The notes under the pieces were generated by a model. The model saw only the letters and a program-made list of their open reading frames with translations, searched no databases and was not told where the DNA came from. From positions 3,224,001-3,288,000 of the forward strand of contig NZ_AP018439.1 in the NCBI RefSeq assembly GCF_009937955.1: a stretch of DNA of 64,000 nt, given 5' to 3'. Each line of letters begins with the position of its first letter. The first letter of the stretch is position 1. Both the position numbers and the translations under genes were made by a program. The stretch is from Undibacterium sp. KW1 (GTDB taxonomy: Bacteria; Pseudomonadota; Gammaproteobacteria; Burkholderiales; Burkholderiaceae_D). Below, one piece after another: positions 3,002-22,368 of this stretch.

Positions 3002-5737
3002 TCAGCTCAACTCAACTTCACTTTTTATTTGGCTGCACTCAATGTCACCTTTTTTACGTGCCAATCCGTGCTCTTTGGCATGATGTAGCGCCAGGTCAAG
3101 TGCATCCATGAATTCGTTAACCTTGATCGGTTTGGTCAGATAACGGAAAAAACCAGCATCCAGGCCCTTAGCGATATCACGTGGCATGGCGTTTGCAGAT
3201 AAGGCCATCACAGGTATATGCGCAGTCAACGGGTCATTTGCCAGAATTTTGAGCGCACCAAAACCACTGAGGCCTGGCAGATTAATGTCCATCAAGATCA
3301 CATCCGGCTTGCAAAGCTGTGCCGTACTGATACCAAGATGGGCATCAACGGCCGTCAAAAGTTTCAGATCGCTGCGACGCGCAATCAATTGTTCGACCAG
3401 CGCCAGATTGGCTGGATTATCTTCAACATAAAGCAAACTGCGTTGAGACGAAGCCTGAGCCACTTTTTGCCCTATGCCCGTTCCGATCAGAAACTCGCCA
3501 GCGCTTTCATCATGCAAAGCTGGAGCTAAGGCCAGGGCGAGCTCTATCCAGAACACACTGCCAATACCAACATTACTTTCTACACCAATCGATCCACCCA
3601 TAAGCTCAACCAGTTGTTTGGTCACCACCAGGCCGATACCTGTTCCCTCTTCATTACCAGCGTCCTGCCCAAGGCGATTAAATGGTTGAAACAGCTGAGC
3701 CATCTGCTCAGGCGACAAACCCTTACCTGCATCCCTGACACTGATGCGCATCCGGTTATCACCATGCATGGCATATTCAACTGTGACCGTACCCTCGTGC
3801 TGGTTATATTTAATCGCATTTGACAGCAAATTCACCATGACTTGCTTGAGCCTGGTGCGGTCTGCAAATACATACAGAGGCATATCGATGACCGGGAAAA
3901 TCATGACTATTCCACGCGTCTTTGCCTGCGGCTCTATCATGGACTGACAATCCAGCAAGACGTCGGCTAGCAAGATAGACTCTTTTGAAATGCTGACCTT
4001 GCCTGACTCTATCATCGCCAGATCCAGGATTTCATTAATCAGCCTCAACAGATACCAGCCTGCCTGCAATATCTGGTCTATCGATAACTTCTGGTTGTCA
4101 GAGGGTGGCGGATTGTCCGATGCCATCAATTGCGCAAAGCCGAGCACTGCATTGAGCGGGGTGCGCAATTCATGGCTCATGCTGGATAAAAACTCTGATT
4201 TGGCCAGATTCGCTTTTTCAGCAACTGCCTTGGCTAATTCAAGTTCTATATTGCTATTCTGTAGTCTTTGCTCAAATAATTTATATTCGGTGACATCGCG
4301 CGCAGACGCAAAAACACCCTGTAATCGACGCTCACGGTCATAGATGGTACTGGCATTGTAAGAGACCCCGGTTTCTTTGCCATTTTTCGCAACCGCTGTC
4401 AGTTCACAATTTGTGACCTTGCCGGTTTGCAGCGCACGCTTCATTGCCAGTTCTGCAGCAGCAGGTTCAGTAAAATAATTTTTGAATGGTGCGCCAATAA
4501 GTTCGTCACGCGTACACCCGGTGATGGCTTCCATCTGATGATTGACGTCACTGATCACACCATTCAGGTCTGTGGTAATCAGGGCATCAATATTGGCCTC
4601 AATTAATGAACGCGTATAAAACTGCTGATCACGAAAACGCTGGTCGAGCAAGGCCTGCTCAGCTTCTACCTGCTTGCGGGCGGTATTGTCTGTACCTATC
4701 AATAAACTGCCGATAACAACTCCCTCCGCATCCCGCAAGGCAGTGACTGAGACAATCGCCTGCAGGCGGCTGCCATCACGACGAATATACGTCAGCTCAT
4801 GAATATCCTCCAGGCTACGCATCGCCTTGAAAATTAAAGCATCAAAACCCAAGGCAACCGGGGTATTAAATTCTGCACTCAGCGCGGCGGCCCTGCTATC
4901 CAGCTCGTTTGTATCGGAGATATCAGCGGGACTAATCAGATTGACGACATCGGCAGCGTCATAACCCAACATATGCTCTGCACCAACATTAAAAATCTGG
5001 ATAAGACCTTGAGCATCGGTCGCAATAATGGAAAAGTTTGGGCTATTAAATATGGCATCCTGCAAGGCTCCCATCTTGAGCAAAACTTCACGTACCTTGA
5101 GTGAAGTTTGTTCACCAGCCCGGCGACCAAGAGTAGCGCGGCGGATCTGTAAAGCCCAGAGCAATAAAAATACCAGCAAAAAAGCGACACTGCCAACGAC
5201 GAGCTTGATGCGAAATGCTGCTTTTAATTTACGTTCATCGAGCAGGACCTGCTCATCGACAACCGCTTCAGTCAAAATATTTTGCACTTTGGCCGATGTC
5301 AGCAGCCCAGTATGAAACAAAGCCCTGGCAGCAGCAAAACCATGCGCATCAAATTGCTTTTGACTTTCCCGCATGACGACAACTCTTTCGTCAACGGCCT
5401 TTTGCAACTGCTGTATGCGTGTCTGTTGCTGAACATTGTCGATTGTCAATCCACGCAGATGCTGAATAACAATCGCTATTTCGTCAAATTGACTATTGCG
5501 CTGTTTGATGAAAGCATCTTCCCTGGTCAGAAAATAAGCTTTTTGCCCGTTCTCCGCCTCTGACAGTTTGGCACTCAGTTCATTGAAATCATCGATGATC
5601 TTGCGGGTATGGTCTATGGACTTGACCGCATCAAAAGGGACAGCAATATTCCAGGCTATGCCCCCTATCATCAGCAAGGCCAGCAAGGTGATACCAAAGC
5701 CGATCAGGGTCAGGCGCTCTACCGAGATTGCCTTCAT
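3002..5737 (-). CDS. Hybrid sensor histidine kinase (CHASE3-PAS-PAS-HisKA-HATPase-REC)
   Basis: Membrane-bound kinase of 911 residues. TM1 lies at about 12-32 and TM2 at about 178-200 (VVGSVAFLLVFLLLWAL), with a helical CHASE3-like periplasmic domain between them. Two PAS domains follow (about 235-355 and 375-490). The dimerisation domain carries His522 in FLSSMSHELRTPLNAV. The ATPase domain shows the N box (NLLSNAIKYN), G1 (DAGKGLS) and G2 (GTGIGLVVTKQL). A C-terminal receiver holds Asp817 in VILMDINLPG and the K-P pair in YLTKPIK. It lies between the first Crp-like gene and the PAS response regulator, all on the minus strand, so a shared circuit is plausible. The signal is unknown. Confidence 0.92.
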   Translation of the reverse strand: MKAISVERLTLIGFGITLLALLMIGGIAWNIAVPFDAVKSIDHTRKIIDDFNELSAKLSEAENGQKAYFLTREDAFIKQRNSQFDEIAIVIQHLRGLTIDNVQQQTRIQQLQKAVDERVVVMRESQKQFDAHGFAAARALFHTGLLTSAKVQNILTEAVVDEQVLLDERKLKAAFRIKLVVGSVAFLLVFLLLWALQIRRATLGRRAGEQTSLKVREVLLKMGALQDAIFNSPNFSIIATDAQGLIQIFNVGAEHMLGYDAADVVNLISPADISDTNELDSRAAALSAEFNTPVALGFDALIFKAMRSLEDIHELTYIRRDGSRLQAIVSVTALRDAEGVVIGSLLIGTDNTARKQVEAEQALLDQRFRDQQFYTRSLIEANIDALITTDLNGVISDVNHQMEAITGCTRDELIGAPFKNYFTEPAAAELAMKRALQTGKVTNCELTAVAKNGKETGVSYNASTIYDRERRLQGVFASARDVTEYKLFEQRLQNSNIELELAKAVAEKANLAKSEFLSSMSHELRTPLNAVLGFAQLMASDNPPPSDNQKLSIDQILQAGWYLLRLINEILDLAMIESGKVSISKESILLADVLLDCQSMIEPQAKTRGIVMIFPVIDMPLYVFADRTRLKQVMVNLLSNAIKYNQHEGTVTVEYAMHGDNRMRISVRDAGKGLSPEQMAQLFQPFNRLGQDAGNEEGTGIGLVVTKQLVELMGGSIGVESNVGIGSVFWIELALALAPALHDESAGEFLIGTGIGQKVAQASSQRSLLYVEDNPANLALVEQLIARRSDLKLLTAVDAHLGISTAQLCKPDVILMDINLPGLSGFGALKILANDPLTAHIPVMALSANAMPRDIAKGLDAGFFRYLTKPIKVNEFMDALDLALHHAKEHGLARKKGDIECSQIKSEVELS

Positions 5738-13244: not shown

Positions 13245-13997
13245 ATGACACAGGCAATGATGGACGACACTTCGGATAAAGTCCGCCGCAACCTTGTAGC
13301 TTTTTGCACCGCAATTTTGATTGCATTTTTCCTTGGCATCAAAATCGAAGAAGTTCAGCCCTTACTATTAAAAGCCAACATAGCCAATAAAGAACGGTTA
13401 TGGCCTGTGCTGCTTGTAGTTTGGCTGTATTTGTTTTATCGATTCAAAGTGTCTAAATCCACACTGGAAACGTGGGAAGTATGGAAGGCAAAGAGACGCG
13501 AAATTTTCCATAATATAAAGAGACATGACTCCAGAATCATTATAGAAAAATATCTCTACGACCAAAAAACCTACTTGGGCTCTGTGATGTTCACACCATT
13601 TGTGAATAGCTCATGGAAACCGTTACCGGAAAAATTCAAAGTAAAAGCAGTTTCGTTCGATAGCGATTTTGATTCGCGGTTAAAAAAAGACTACATCGAT
13701 AACATAATAGTAAATATAGAATTTGATGGAATTATAACCGTGGACGTCGAAGCGGAACTTGCATCGCATATCACATCGGCCTTTGAAACTTCGCTACACA
13801 ATACCGGCGACTATAAATCGAGTAGGACACTATTTTTTCAAACAACTGCGCATGTAGTATTTTCAAAGTACACTTTTTATACTAAAACTTTCGCATCGTT
13901 TCTAAAGTCGATTTTTAATTGGGAATTCAGTGAGGTAGTTTTTGGCTATCTGATAGCCACAAGTGCCGTTGCAGTCATTGTCTATAAACTGCTTTAA
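13245..13997 (+). CDS. Three-TM membrane protein of unknown function
   Basis: 250 residues after an AAGGA ribosome site. Two hydrophobic segments lie near the N-terminus (about 18-33, AFCTAILIAFFLGI, and about 50-66, LWPVLLVVWLYLFYRF). A soluble domain of about 150 residues with alternating strands and charged turns follows, then a C-terminal segment (about 230-248, GYLIATSAVAVIVYKLL). The gene is clearly AT-richer than its neighbours, a sign of separate origin. Position and topology would suit a superinfection-exclusion or defence protein carried as prophage cargo, but nothing in the sequence proves this and I recognise no family. Confidence 0.55.
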   Translation: MTQAMMDDTSDKVRRNLVAFCTAILIAFFLGIKIEEVQPLLLKANIANKERLWPVLLVVWLYLFYRFKVSKSTLETWEVWKAKRREIFHNIKRHDSRIIIEKYLYDQKTYLGSVMFTPFVNSSWKPLPEKFKVKAVSFDSDFDSRLKKDYIDNIIVNIEFDGIITVDVEAELASHITSAFETSLHNTGDYKSSRTLFFQTTAHVVFSKYTFYTKTFASFLKSIFNWEFSEVVFGYLIATSAVAVIVYKLL

Positions 13998-14010: not shown

Positions 14011-14180
14011 CATAGATTAAAACGACTATGCCACCAGGTGCGCATCGAGCATAGTCGTCAATGTCTATGGGATCCGGCAGGCATAGCCATTGACGACTAT
14101 GCTGCAGGAACTTTCCATTCTTAGCTTGCCTGCATAGTCATCGATAACTATACTGGCCGACATAGTCATTTATATCTATG
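14011..14180. repeat. Array of five 20-bp dyads (CATAG-N10-CTATG) before a methyltransferase
   Basis: Units at 14011-14030, 14050-14069, 14082-14101, 14133-14152 and 14161-14180. All have CATAG, exactly 10 nt, then CTATG (CTATA in unit 4). Read in one orientation each begins CATAGTC(G/A). Units 2, 4 and 5 lie on the plus strand and units 1 and 3 on the minus strand. Unit 5 ends 10 bp before the methyltransferase ATG. A sixth copy overlaps that gene's stop codon. I found no other full copy in the window. Confidence 0.85.
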
Positions 14181-14190
14181 GTGGGCCTGC

Positions 14191-14868
14191 ATGGGGTATT
14201 TGGGATCAAAGGCGGCAAGCGGCGCGTATCAGGTAATCATTGCCAATATGCCGCCGCACGACACGTATATTGAAACGCATTTAGGAAGTGGCGCTGTCAT
14301 GTCTCGCAAGCCAGGTGCAAACCGGTCTATCGGCATTGACATGGACCAGGCCGTCATTGATCTATACCGCAAAGACAATCCAGGCACTGAACTGCACCAG
14401 GGCGACGCCCTAACATACTTGAAGCAGTTTGACTTCACTTGCGCCGGTCGCGTGCTGATCTATGCAGACCCGCCCTACTTGCTGAGCACCAGAACGTCAC
14501 GCCACCGCTACAAACATGAATACACTGATGACGACCATAGGGAACTGCTTGCCGTTCTGCGCGGGCTTTCTGAGGCCGGTGCGGCTGTGATGCTGTCGGG
14601 TTATCCGTCAGCGCTTTACGATACGATCTTAGAGGGATGGAGGTCAGTAGAATTTCAAGTGATGACGCGAGGTGGGCCGCGCACTGAGAAACTATGGATG
14701 AGTTTTGATGCGGGTGCTGCGCACTGGGCGACGTACGCGGGAGAGGGATTTGCTGAGCGCCAGAGAATTAAGCGGAAGGCGGCTCGATGGGCAGATAATT
14801 ATAGGGCATTGCCACCAGGAGAGCGCCTGGCCATACTGGCAGCAATGCTTGAGGTGAGCGGCACATAG
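14191..14868 (+). CDS. Phage-type DNA adenine methyltransferase (D12 class), orphan
   Basis: 225 residues. The catalytic motif IV is D93-P-P-Y (IYADPPYLLSTRT). The AdoMet-binding region lies at the N-terminus (DTYIETHLGSGAVMSRKPG and GIDMDQAVIDLY), so the motif order fits an N6-adenine enzyme of the Dam/D12 group. The target site cannot be read from sequence, and no partner restriction gene is visible. GGTGG serves as ribosome site. Five 20-bp dyads sit in the 180 bp upstream, and a sixth overlaps the TAG stop. It is convergent, with a 35-bp gap, to a second and dissimilar adenine methyltransferase. Confidence 0.88.
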   Translation: MGYLGSKAASGAYQVIIANMPPHDTYIETHLGSGAVMSRKPGANRSIGIDMDQAVIDLYRKDNPGTELHQGDALTYLKQFDFTCAGRVLIYADPPYLLSTRTSRHRYKHEYTDDDHRELLAVLRGLSEAGAAVMLSGYPSALYDTILEGWRSVEFQVMTRGGPRTEKLWMSFDAGAAHWATYAGEGFAERQRIKRKAARWADNYRALPPGERLAILAAMLEVSGT

Positions 14869-14883
14869 TTGATTTTGACTATG
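14864..14883. repeat. Sixth CATAG-N10-CTATG dyad, at the methyltransferase 3' end
   Basis: CATAGTTGATTTTGACTATG. The TAG of the left arm is the stop codon of the preceding methyltransferase gene. In the minus orientation it begins CATAGTCA, like units 4 and 5 upstream. The repeats therefore flank the gene on both sides. Confidence 0.85.
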
Positions 14884-14903: not shown

Positions 14904-15692
14904 TTAAAAGAGTCCTACTGGATCACTTGCGCGATCCCATGAATAAATAATCACTTCCAACCTGTCCACGGCCTTACCGCCACCCCCGACGCTATACTTT
15001 ATCGGCACAGTATCGATCTCAAAGTCCGCAAATATGCGACGGATATCCGGGTGATCGTTCAGGCTGATGATGGCCTTGCCTTTTAACGTCTTGAGCGTGT
15101 CGGCCATCAGTTCATATTGCTCGATCCCAAAATCCACACCGTAGCCTTCCGTTTCCCAGTATGGCGGGTCCAGGTAAAAGAACGTGTGTGGCCGGTCATA
15201 GCGCAGCATTAGCTTGTGCCAGTCCATGTTTTCGATATAAGCAGAAGCCAAGCGGAGGTGCGCTGCAGAGATGTTTTCTTCGATGCGCATAAAATTCAAT
15301 GGAGGGGCCGTGGTGGCAGTCCCCCATGTCTGGCCGTCCACTTTGCCGCCAAAAGCATGCTGCTGCAGGTAAAAAAAGCGTGCTGCCCGCTGAATATCGG
15401 TAAGTGTCTGTGGCGGGGTTTCCTGTTGCCACTTAAACACATCCCGGCTCGATAGTGCGTACTTGTATTGGCGCACAAACTCTTCCATGTGATTCTTGAC
15501 GACCCGGTACAGGTTGACCAGCTCGCCGTTGATGTCGTTAATGACTTCGACTTCAGCCGGTTGCCGCATGAAGTACAAAGCCGCCCCGCCCGCGAAAACT
15601 TCAACGTAGCAGCTATGGGGAGGGAAATTAGGGATCAGCTTGTCGGCCAAGCGACGCTTGCCGCCGATCCAGGGAATGATAGGCATTGCCAT
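14904..15692 (-). CDS. DNA adenine methyltransferase (D12 class), orphan
   Basis: 262 residues from the Met of MAMPIIPWIGGKRRLADKLI, preceded by AAGG. The AdoMet-binding motif I (WIGGKRRL and EVFAGGAALYF) and motif IV D175-P-P-Y (FFYLDPPYWETEGYG) are intact. NDINGELVNLYRVVKNH is typical of phage D12 enzymes. The likely role is protection from host restriction or altered regulation, since no cognate endonuclease is nearby. It is the most downstream gene of the leftward late block and lies 158 bp beyond Rz. The longer frame to 15851 lacks family similarity in its first 53 residues. Confidence 0.9.
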   Translation of the reverse strand: MAMPIIPWIGGKRRLADKLIPNFPPHSCYVEVFAGGAALYFMRQPAEVEVINDINGELVNLYRVVKNHMEEFVRQYKYALSSRDVFKWQQETPPQTLTDIQRAARFFYLQQHAFGGKVDGQTWGTATTAPPLNFMRIEENISAAHLRLASAYIENMDWHKLMLRYDRPHTFFYLDPPYWETEGYGVDFGIEQYELMADTLKTLKGKAIISLNDHPDIRRIFADFEIDTVPIKYSVGGGGKAVDRLEVIIYSWDRASDPVGLF

Positions 15693-15850
15693 TGAGTAAA
15701 CCTTATTGATTGTGCTAGACTTTGCCCGCCTCGCGAGGTGGCAGAGCCTTGCTCGGTTCACTGTGCATGCAGTGGATTGAGGCCGGTATAGGTTGTTCGC
15801 GCAACTTACTCCGGCGCTCTGTTCTTTTTTGCTTTGTGCAGACGTCTGCA

Positions 15851-16372
15851 CTATTCCTGTGGGGTATTCGTTACCACCTGGAGCTTTTTATAAAAGTCTC
15901 GCAGCCCTAGCGCTTGCTCACGCCAGGCGATGCAACTGGTTGCATTGTGCGCAGTTGTTTCTGCAACGTCAGTGAGCGAAACTCCGGCGGGTTCTCGGTC
16001 AGCACTGGCGGGAGGTCCGGTATCGTTACCCGCCCAGGCGGCGTTGTAGTTGCGCACGAAGCCAGCATTGATAACGCAAGCAGCACTATCACTGGCCGTA
16101 ACAAATGCAGGCGCATCTTGTTCATTTTTTTCCCCTTGTTCATACACTTCTATAAAACGGTCTTTATAAACCGTTTGCGTTTCGGTCACGACTTTGGTTT
16201 GTGCCTTGCCGATGGCAACAGTCTGGCTGGCCTGCTTGGAGATGTAATCGTTATGGAATTCACCGGCGACGCGCTCGCCATGCAATTGACCGAGCAGGAA
16301 CATGGCACCGGCTATAACGGCTACAGCAACCAGGCGTAACCAGCCTGGCACTACATAAGAAAGCAGGCTCAT
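15851..16372 (-). CDS. Rz: Rz-like inner-membrane spanin
   Basis: 173 residues with an N-terminal membrane anchor (about 10-28, GWLRLVAVAVIAGAMFLLGQL) and a long charged periplasmic stretch (SKQASQTVAIGKAQTKVVTE) suited to a coiled coil. Family knowledge: i-spanins pair with a lipoprotein o-spanin to fuse the two membranes at the last step of lysis. The start codon overlaps the endolysin stop (ATGA), so translation is probably coupled. A second gene in another frame (15907-16125) lies entirely within it and encodes the partner. Confidence 0.85.
   Translation of the reverse strand: MSLLSYVVPGWLRLVAVAVIAGAMFLLGQLHGERVAGEFHNDYISKQASQTVAIGKAQTKVVTETQTVYKDRFIEVYEQGEKNEQDAPAFVTASDSAACVINAGFVRNYNAAWAGNDTGPPASADREPAGVSLTDVAETTAHNATSCIAWREQALGLRDFYKKLQVVTNTPQE
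15907..16125 (-). CDS. Rz1: Rz1-like outer-membrane spanin lipoprotein, nested in Rz
   Basis: 72 residues in a different frame, wholly inside the Rz gene. The signal peptide MNKMRLHLLRPVIVLLALSM ends in the lipobox LASC, followed by a proline-rich stretch (TTTPPGRVTIPDLPPVL) that is typical of Rz1. I prefer the inner Met at 16125, which has a purine-rich AAGGGGAAAA leader; an alternative Met lies at 16143. Embedding in the i-spanin gene is a known phage arrangement and strengthens both calls. Confidence 0.88.
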   Translation of the reverse strand: MNKMRLHLLRPVIVLLALSMLASCATTTPPGRVTIPDLPPVLTENPPEFRSLTLQKQLRTMQPVASPGVSKR

Positions 16373-20644: not shown

Positions 20645-21487
20645 GTGTTTACCCTTGAAGAAATCGCTTCAAAACCAAGTGCAGACGAAACAAGCATTGC
20701 CACACCTCGTACAGTCACTTCCGGCAATGGCACAGTACTCACTCAAAAAAATAACGATGCTTACCTGGAAAAACTCAGGAAAGAAGACGAACTCAAAGAA
20801 CGCGCAACTAAAGAAACCCGCTACCGTGTGGAATTGTACAAACGTGTCCGCCAGCGCGGCTTCAATGGCTTCAGCCTGCAGTCTCTTCGCGCATTCGTAA
20901 AGCAAATGCTGACTGACGCCAACGACTACGAATTGAACGATGACGTCTTTAAAGAACTGCCCGGCATCTACCCGTTTATGGACAACTACACCCGTGAAAG
21001 TGCTTTTGAATTCATCGATAACGCGCCCCTTGATGTAGTCCAGCTCGTACTGGTGGACTTAGTCTTGTCAGATTCCCTGCTAGTTGATCAATGGGGTATT
21101 CAAACAATCGGTGACGGTGACGATAGCTTCATGACTGTTGAAGCAATAGCCAGGGCTGAAGGCATTGATCCAGCCCAGGTACGCGCAGAACTGGAGAAAC
21201 CTGTCGAGCCTGAACAAGAGCCAGAGCCTGTACAAAAACCGGCAAAGCGCGTCAGGCCAGCGAAAGCAGCTACAGCCCAGGAACCCAACCAGGCCAGCAA
21301 GGTGCAAACAATCACAACGGTAGATGATGCACCCAAAACCACAAAAATCAGAGGGGCCAGGCCAAAGGCGAAACAACCTGAAGCAGTACAAAGCCCTGAA
21401 TCCGATGCAGAGCCAGATAACCAGGATAAGGAACACCCAGTAATAAGCCCCAACACTTCCTGGCCTTTCCCGAAAGGAGCAAAATAA
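20645..21487 (+). CDS. Prophage protein with disordered Pro/Lys tail, 5' end uncertain
   Basis: About 280 residues if it begins at the GTG at 20645. The open frame continues further upstream into the divergent gene with no good ribosome site, so the true start was probably removed by deletion. Residues 35-160 are helical and charged ([38 protein letters not shown]). The last 90 are Pro/Glu/Lys-rich and disordered ([19 protein letters not shown]). No family recognised. The stop overlaps the next start (TAATG), so the two are translationally coupled. Confidence 0.6.
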
Positions 21488-22368
21488 TGAAGCAATGGAT
21501 TCTACGTCACCTTAAGTGGTGGATTGCAGGTAAAGAACTGCATGAAAAAAATGCTCTAATTGCCCTGTTAAAGGAAGAGTTACACGATGCAAAAGAGTTC
21601 GCGTTTGAAAGCGGGCTTGATGCCGCAAGGAATGGACCTCACACGCTTTTTGTCCATGAAGACTCCGATCTTGATGGACTGGAAGGCGATGTACCACTTT
21701 GTCATTTTTATTTTTATTCAGATTCTGGCGATAGCTCTGTCGGCATTCCAGCCAGGCATTACTGGGCATTATCAGACGATCAGACCGGCACAGAACTGGA
21801 ACGAATTTTAAAGCAACTGCATCAAAAAGAAGCCGACTTGAAGCAACAGAAATCAGCCATGCGCGATTTAGAGATACAGGTCAAGAATGCCAATGCTGAT
21901 GCCGACATGTACGCAAATGCCTGGCAGCGAGAGCTTGCTGCCTTCGATGGCACTATCCGCAACAAGCGCCACCACATTGACGCAATGGTATGTACAACTC
22001 GTGAGTTAGTCTTGAAGTTGCGCACCGCTAAAGCAGAAATCAATGCAAACAGCTTTAACTTTGTACAGCATCTAAACCGCCAGAAAGCATTTTCTGAAAA
22101 CACTTTTGGACCCGGCCTGCGCACCAGCATGGTGATTGACCACATCATCAAGGAACTGATTGAGATAGAGGCAGCGCCGAGAGATATCACCGAGTGGACA
22201 GACTTGATTCTGCTTGCCTTGGACGGTGCTTGGCGAACTGGAGCAACGCCCGAACAGATTGGAGAAGCATTGACGCAAAAGCTCAGCAGGAACGAGCAAC
22301 GCACCTGGCCGAACTGGCGCTCGGCTGACCCAGACAAAGCAATTGAGCATACTAAGGAGGCAAATTAA
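21487..22368 (+). CDS. DUF550-type dATP/dGTP pyrophosphohydrolase with N-terminal coiled region
   Basis: 293 residues. The C-terminal 95 match the DUF550 (MazZ-like) nucleotide pyrophosphohydrolase fold: [20 protein letters not shown], then the metal-binding pattern E-x-x-E (KELIEIE) and E-x-x-D ([14 protein letters not shown]), and the tail [20 protein letters not shown]. The N-terminal half is a charged coiled coil ([20 protein letters not shown]). The family hydrolyses purine dNTPs; in phages this can shape the nucleotide pool. Flanked by 1-bp overlaps on both sides, it is the middle gene of a three-gene operon. Confidence 0.78.

Follow-up and report, generated by a model that had tools for sequence, protein, structure and literature searches.

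The 20-bp dyads of the form CATAG-N10-CTATG that surround a gene for a D12-class N6-adenine methyltransferase (MTase) in the window, i.e. the whole 64-kb stretch of Undibacterium DNA analysed here, are best read as an array of operators belonging to a portable MTase module; we regard this reading as well supported, with a probability of about 0.85. Somewhat less firmly, we take the MTase itself as the likeliest protein to bind these operators and thereby to repress its own gene. The module, a dyad-bearing promoter joined to one MTase family, recurs on prophages, P2-like phages, and IncP-1 and Acinetobacter plasmids, and it looks like a portable self-limiting switch with which mobile DNA methylates briefly on entry and then turns methylation off.

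Five units in the window match the dyad exactly, namely unit 1 (14011–14030, minus strand, CATAGTCG orientation, PWM score 20.6), unit 2 (14050–14069, plus strand), unit 3 (14082–14101, minus strand), unit 5 (14161–14180, plus strand, PWM score 25.6) and unit 6 (14864–14883, minus strand). Unit 4 (14133–14152, plus strand) carries one mismatch, an A as its last base, and is placed between TTGCCT (14126–14131) and TATACT (14149–14154). The palindromes GGATCC, CTGCAG and GTCGAC directly follow units 2, 3 and 6, respectively. Unit 5 ends 10 bp 5' of the MTase start codon (ATG at 14191), and unit 6 spans the stop codon (TAG, 14866–14868). Our pattern search thus recovered the positions, arms, spacing, directions and common start CATAGTC(G/A) that an earlier note on this DNA had reported. 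Dyads with at most one mismatch number 9 in the window versus 1.41 expected, a count reached by none of 100 shuffles. In the 6.69-Mb host genome, five of the six exact matches to CATAGTCR-N7-CTATG fall in the window, the reversed-pattern control giving one match; a looser palindrome, CAYNGWCR-N4-YRWCNRTG, gives 38 strand matches versus 12 for its control, scattered save at the window locus. The exact oriented pattern is present in 8 of 59 other genomes versus 14 of 59 for the reversed control pattern, hence isolated copies of the dyad elsewhere represent background.

The MTase (225 aa, 14191–14868, plus strand) matches PF02086 with 36.6 bits (cut-off 22), and in an alignment of 30 sequences residues D93, P94 and Y96 of its DPPY motif are invariant, P95 nearly so. 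A structure model contains the Dam fold, within which the protein is ~90 residues shorter than E. coli Dam; this comparison concerns the Dam-fold part, with the C-terminal part lying outside it. The Dam-like domain would be devoid of the segment with which Dam recognises its target, and the score against TIGR00571, the NCBIfam model of Dam family site-specific MTases, is 41.2 bits, under the cut-off of 114.85. Beyond the Dam fold, the family shares an invariant RQRI.RK motif and a conserved, basic C-terminal hairpin of two predicted helices (residues 187–205 and 209–223), while no N-terminal extension stands ahead of the conserved MGYLGSK start. A search for free-standing copies of the C-terminal domain gave 16 short proteins, three of which are named DNA methylase by a source. 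PADLOC matches comprise generic MTase models and one PD-Lambda-5_B model.

Relatives of this MTase are found on mobile DNA of very different kinds: Peduoviridae phages of Salmonella and Klebsiella, IncP-1 plasmids, plasmids of Acinetobacter, Shewanella, Photobacterium and Xanthomonas, sphingomonads (plasmids included) and repeated genomic elements. The family member on IncP-1 plasmids lies beside trbP and corresponds to upf31.0 (PMC6266692, in part). The homologue search gave 3518 proteins at E ≤ 0.001, of which the best 120 were listed. Among the plasmid matches to the window MTase, E. coli is absent both from the ten genera named and from the 60 matches listed. No relative was present at E ≤ 1e-25 in 35 further Undibacterium genomes, and two viral scans that used distant MTases found no relatives. 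In one genome (G306, C2), six copies of an element with the family MTase (L147, L148, L150–L153) are 98.7 to 99.95% alike, and a seventh (L140) has diverged to 77%. The ORF that follows the MTase in L140, and in copies L139 and L146 of G293, we take to be IS66-transposase-like.

From 226 loci, 204 with a near-full-length MTase were retained and reduced to 93 non-redundant ones (at least 150 bp upstream, at most half of the upstream 8-mers shared), many of them from P2-like phages. A matrix built from the six window units detects, at threshold 10, 133 units upstream of the MTase in 62 of the 92 other loci, whereas three control segments yield 11, 10 and 3 units and shuffled upstream sequence yields 3 to 8; just downstream of the MTase it finds 22 units in 11 loci. 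The earlier note had named the lack of any tie to MTase genes as an outcome that would speak against it; this was not borne out, although one array (L261, below) has no MTase on its contig. A matrix-independent count leads to the same spacing: among perfect 5-bp inverted repeats with loops of 3 to 21 bases in the 200 bp upstream, those with loop 10 number 72 (shuffles: mean 18.1, maximum 24), and five other segments give 19 to 39 at this loop length, without a peak. The refined consensus is CAYNGTCATTTTTRACNRTG, and at a lax threshold the refined matrix yields 227 units in 78 of the 93 loci, compared with 6 to 11 for each of three control segments and 24 immediately downstream; this matrix was trained on the loci that it scored, a circularity from which the six-unit matrix is free. 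A unit scoring at least 14 is present in 73 of the 93 loci, those without a good unit being kept in these denominators. The window unit is thus one form of a widespread palindrome, whose arms include CATAG/CTATG (the window type), CATCG/CGATG (the IncP-1 type) and CACGG/CCGTG.

The position of the dyads relative to the promoter gives them a candidate function. In low-copy loci with one to three dyads, TTGACA is often followed by one base and the dyad; the final four bases of the right arm, together with the next two, then make up the −10 element. When the −10 element is set at dyad base 17, at least 9 of the 12 −35/−10 bases agree in 11 of the 45 units from 19 diverse loci, versus a mean of 0.31 over 51 offsets; these 19 were hand-picked among loci with dyad matches, leaving out non-P2 loci without matches such as L030, L033, L053, L060, L074, L139, L140, L146 and L148. 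TTGACA stands at the fixed place in L056, L057, L131, L145, L159, L160 and L254. Over all 227 units, 11 reach 9/12 in the dyad register (offset 16; mean over offsets 0.43), and the mean promoter match at this offset ranks second of 51, which indicates that most P2-like loci have no such promoter or a degenerate one. A palindrome over the promoter of an MTase gene, as known from MTase autorepressors, is thus found in relatives, whereas the window has only the 9/12 match of unit 4 (TTGCCT/TATACT, 17-bp spacer), which is at chance level (2 such matches found, 1.4 expected). In L254 (2788–3522), the family MTase is 45% identical to a Fibrella MTase, and its ATG follows the −10 element of TTGACA-dyad-TATACT by six bases, so that a leaderless mRNA seems possible; the same ATG spacing is repeated in L145, L159 and L160.

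Based on these observations, we infer that each 20-bp palindrome serves as the site of a homodimeric DNA-binding protein, with half-sites close to CAYNGTCR. In the basic layout, TTGACA-n-CATAG-N10-C-TATGCT, the dyad would fill the 17-bp promoter spacer, and its occupancy would block RNA polymerase; additional units, placed further 5' or, at a few loci, on or behind the stop codon, would make repression tighter. The MTase is the sole gene common to all 20 varied loci of a gene-sharing comparison (flanks of 3.4 to 8.7 kb, the window with 64 kb; loci hand-picked, some of the same context), the next two gene clusters, from 14 and 6 of the 20 loci, being by position antisense frames of the MTase itself. 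This points to the MTase as the binder, which may bind as a dimer through its predicted C-terminal hairpin; by analogy with M.SsoII, the hairpin, unrelated to the domain used there, would be needed for binding, the N-terminal domain being absent. In a cell free of MTase the promoter would be accessible, and a burst of adenine methylation could protect the entering element; as the MTase accumulates, it would shut off its own gene, and over-methylation of the host would be avoided. Of the two readings in the earlier note, operator array or ends of a mobile cassette, the first has held up, as dyads recur 5' of MTase relatives and, at many loci, in promoter register.

Alternatively, the array might answer to a different regulator, supplied by the host or, as an XRE- or HTH-type protein, by the element, that would act in trans on the MTase gene and possibly on others; we consider this possible though unlikely. 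Such a regulator is suggested by L261, a complete viral contig of 5.4 kb without an MTase, in which two good dyads and a diverged third (4086–4159) lie 5' of a gene that reads as helix-turn-helix-like. L261 could reflect trans-regulation or be a fragment of a larger genome. It stems from a pattern scan of viral contigs (10 of 18 covered in part, L261 in full) that gave 18 loci, two of which have the MTase (L250, the contig of L013, and L254) and one an array without it (L261), the other 15 being single sites that we take as chance. Also in favour of a different regulator, the dyads of L026, shared with L028 and clustered ~2 kb past the MTase, lie beyond what reads as a transposase and beside an apparently XRE-like gene. 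Against it, no regulator is common to the 20 varied loci, whereas the MTase is; furthermore, the CATAG arm form is found in the window, on one Acinetobacter plasmid and elsewhere, and half-sites vary among phage loci. Other loci depart from the scheme in other ways: 20 of the 93 are without a unit scoring at least 14, among them a group with L024 of Serratia, in which the gene apparently lies close behind another gene, and IS-linked loci with diverged promoter palindromes, while L060 has dyads downstream only.

Strand-specific folding offers another explanation of the dyads, namely single-strand hairpins that serve as a promoter of the Frpo kind during transfer or as a structured mRNA leader. 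The window array indeed folds more stably than its shuffles (z −6.3 as ssDNA, −5.9 as RNA), and z falls below −2 in 40% (coding strand) and 51% (template strand) of the upstream regions, compared with 5% and 13% of controls. The entry MTase M.EcoGIX is, moreover, thought to use an Frpo promoter (PMC7736820, in part). However, both strands are more structured than controls (median z as RNA −1.53 for coding and −2.00 for template), and at 50 of the 93 loci the coding strand folds more stably (mean 2.0 kcal/mol), which is not significant (P = 0.12), so that we rejected an RNA leader structure. Furthermore, with TTGACA in place the start site is expected 3' of the dyad, leaving the dyad outside the mRNA, the −35 element lies outside the hairpin, and coding-strand G-T mismatches, summed over pairs 1–8, are not commoner than A-C mismatches (133 versus 177). 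We regard single-strand hairpins as quite improbable, although, given the strong fold of the window array, the dyads may have some role in single strands.

Covariation of the two arms bears on the same question. The two bases at arm position 4 form a pair in 51 of the 70 best units, versus 24.8 after shuffling between loci (maximum 38), but within loci in 52 of 100 versus 44.4 (maximum 53; 1% of 2000 shuffles reach the observed value). There is likewise a small within-locus excess at pair 6 (3% of shuffles) and a deficit at pair 3, opposite to what pairing would give; hairpin pairing was thus rejected as the source of the covariation, the weak signal at pairs 4 and 6 being its remaining support. 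Half-sites that change on both sides together, locus by locus, may rather be explained by a symmetric protein evolving with its element, with a contribution of common descent, and the covariation could even reflect nothing more than a shared ancestry of gene and site. The direction that the earlier note assigned to each unit holds in the window, but matters less across the family, where 194 units divide into 116 plus and 78 minus (58 and 20 for those nearest to the gene). Both orientations, the lack of a clear preference for a folding strand and half-site drift mainly per locus favour a double-stranded operator rather than RNA hairpins or cassette ends. Helical phasing of the dyads (gaps of 6 and 16–18 bp) was discarded: the 146 gaps are non-uniform, but in the 23 gaps from diverse loci this is not significant (P = 0.27), and the period that fits best, 12.9, differs from 10.5.

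Finally, that the dyads mark the termini of a mobile gene cassette or its points of exchange, the second reading of the earlier note, is highly improbable: although the MTase gene sits on very different elements and dyads flank both sides in the window, L225, L065, L123, L131, L158 and L254, a downstream unit scoring at least 12 is missing from 84 of the 93 loci, single-dyad loci occur, the dyads lie in promoter register, the six G306 copies share a left boundary ~517 bp 5' of the gene without a dyad match there, and an empty site was looked for and none found. Three of the nine loci with such a downstream unit have no good upstream unit, and a unit at most 9 bases from the MTase stop codon is present also in L225, L060, L074 and L131.

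The preferred reading, i.e. operators of a self-repressing MTase gene, can be set against known systems. In the literature searched, which covered the themes of MTase autoregulation, P2-like phages, IncP-1 plasmids and D12 enzymes and extended to journals outside subscription, the dyads are without description. To our knowledge, no D12 adenine MTase that represses itself has been described apart from restriction-modification systems. Among non-specific prophage MTases, M.EcoGII and others like it are near by description only; Hia5 is presumably a further MTase of this kind. The closest likeness is to M.SsoII, M.Ecl18kI and M.EcoRII, which repress their own genes through a promoter palindrome, as we predict here (PMC6100179, PMC3874152, PMC12707154, each in part). 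Two molecules of M.SsoII bind one 15-bp promoter palindrome, with the catalytic domains on flanking DNA (PMC6100179, in part), and the EcoRII and Ecl18kI MTases also carry repressor domains (PMC12707154, PMC3874152, in part). However, M.SsoII is a cytosine-C5 enzyme of a restriction-modification system, with an N-terminal regulatory domain and a single 15-bp site, whereas the window MTase is an adenine D12 enzyme with no known partner nuclease, a predicted C-terminal hairpin and 20-bp sites that are often arrayed. M.EcoGIX and M.BceJIII are, like the window MTase, adenine MTases of mobile DNA; they are silent and proposed to act early against restriction on entry, but, compared by description only, they are assigned to the beta class, and their control is attributed to a single-strand promoter instead of palindromes (PMC7736820, in part). 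RptR represses its own promoter, ahead of restriction-modification genes, through three palindromic motifs over the −10 element, yet is a stand-alone repressor whose site, TAGCTA, has 6 bp (PMC12255303, in part). The MTases that prophages and plasmids carry are frequently silent at the level of transcription in the host (PMC4659465, in part), and the means of silencing is seldom known; the dyad-promoter module offers a testable answer, i.e. self-repression after a burst on entry.

Palindromic hexamers abut the dyads far beyond the window. In the 388 flanks of 194 units, a 6-bp palindrome starts at the dyad edge in 77 and one base further out in 110, whereas the next 15 offsets give 1 to 32, at most 11 except for a peak at offsets 9 to 11, mainly TGGCCA; a hexamer between two dyads is counted twice, and this double counting and shared descent inflate the totals. 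For the 19 diverse loci plus window unit 6, the corresponding counts are 15 and 17 among 92 flanks, with 18 other offsets ranging from 0 to 5, and the recurrence of hexamers across different elements is real. CTGCAG, TGGCCA and GGTACC are the commonest. CTGCAG forms the linker in 14 of the 21 cases in which two dyads are separated by 6 bp, and the hexamer signal may thus be in part an extended half-site (AG-CAYNG ... CNRTG-CT). A more speculative and rather doubtful idea is that of dual-function adenine MTases, whose C-terminal hairpin would sit on the dyads and whose catalytic domains would dock on the abutting hexamers (CTGCAG, TGGCCA, GGTACC, GGATCC, GTCGAC and others). If so, the operator would gauge the MTase's own methylation, its restriction-site-like palindromes signalling whether the DNA already carries the mark, and the entry burst would stop once protection is complete.

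Regarding the neighbourhood of the array, the earlier note had called the MTase an orphan, which stands only in part, as a second D12 MTase (14904–15851, minus strand) is convergent with the first, 35 bp from its end. At the DNA level this second gene resembles gp25 of Burkholderia phage KS9 and a Dam gene of Pseudomonas phage B3, and a 368-bp stretch with 90% identity lies elsewhere in the host genome (C1:2208626-2208993). The 250-aa protein encoded 5' of the dyads (13245–13997, plus strand) matches nothing in Pfam, PHROG, PADLOC or NCBIfam under the thresholds applied. Further downstream, the gene at 21487–22368 (plus strand) encodes a C-terminal dATP/dGTP pyrophosphohydrolase domain (PF04447), a domain known from phages with modified purines.
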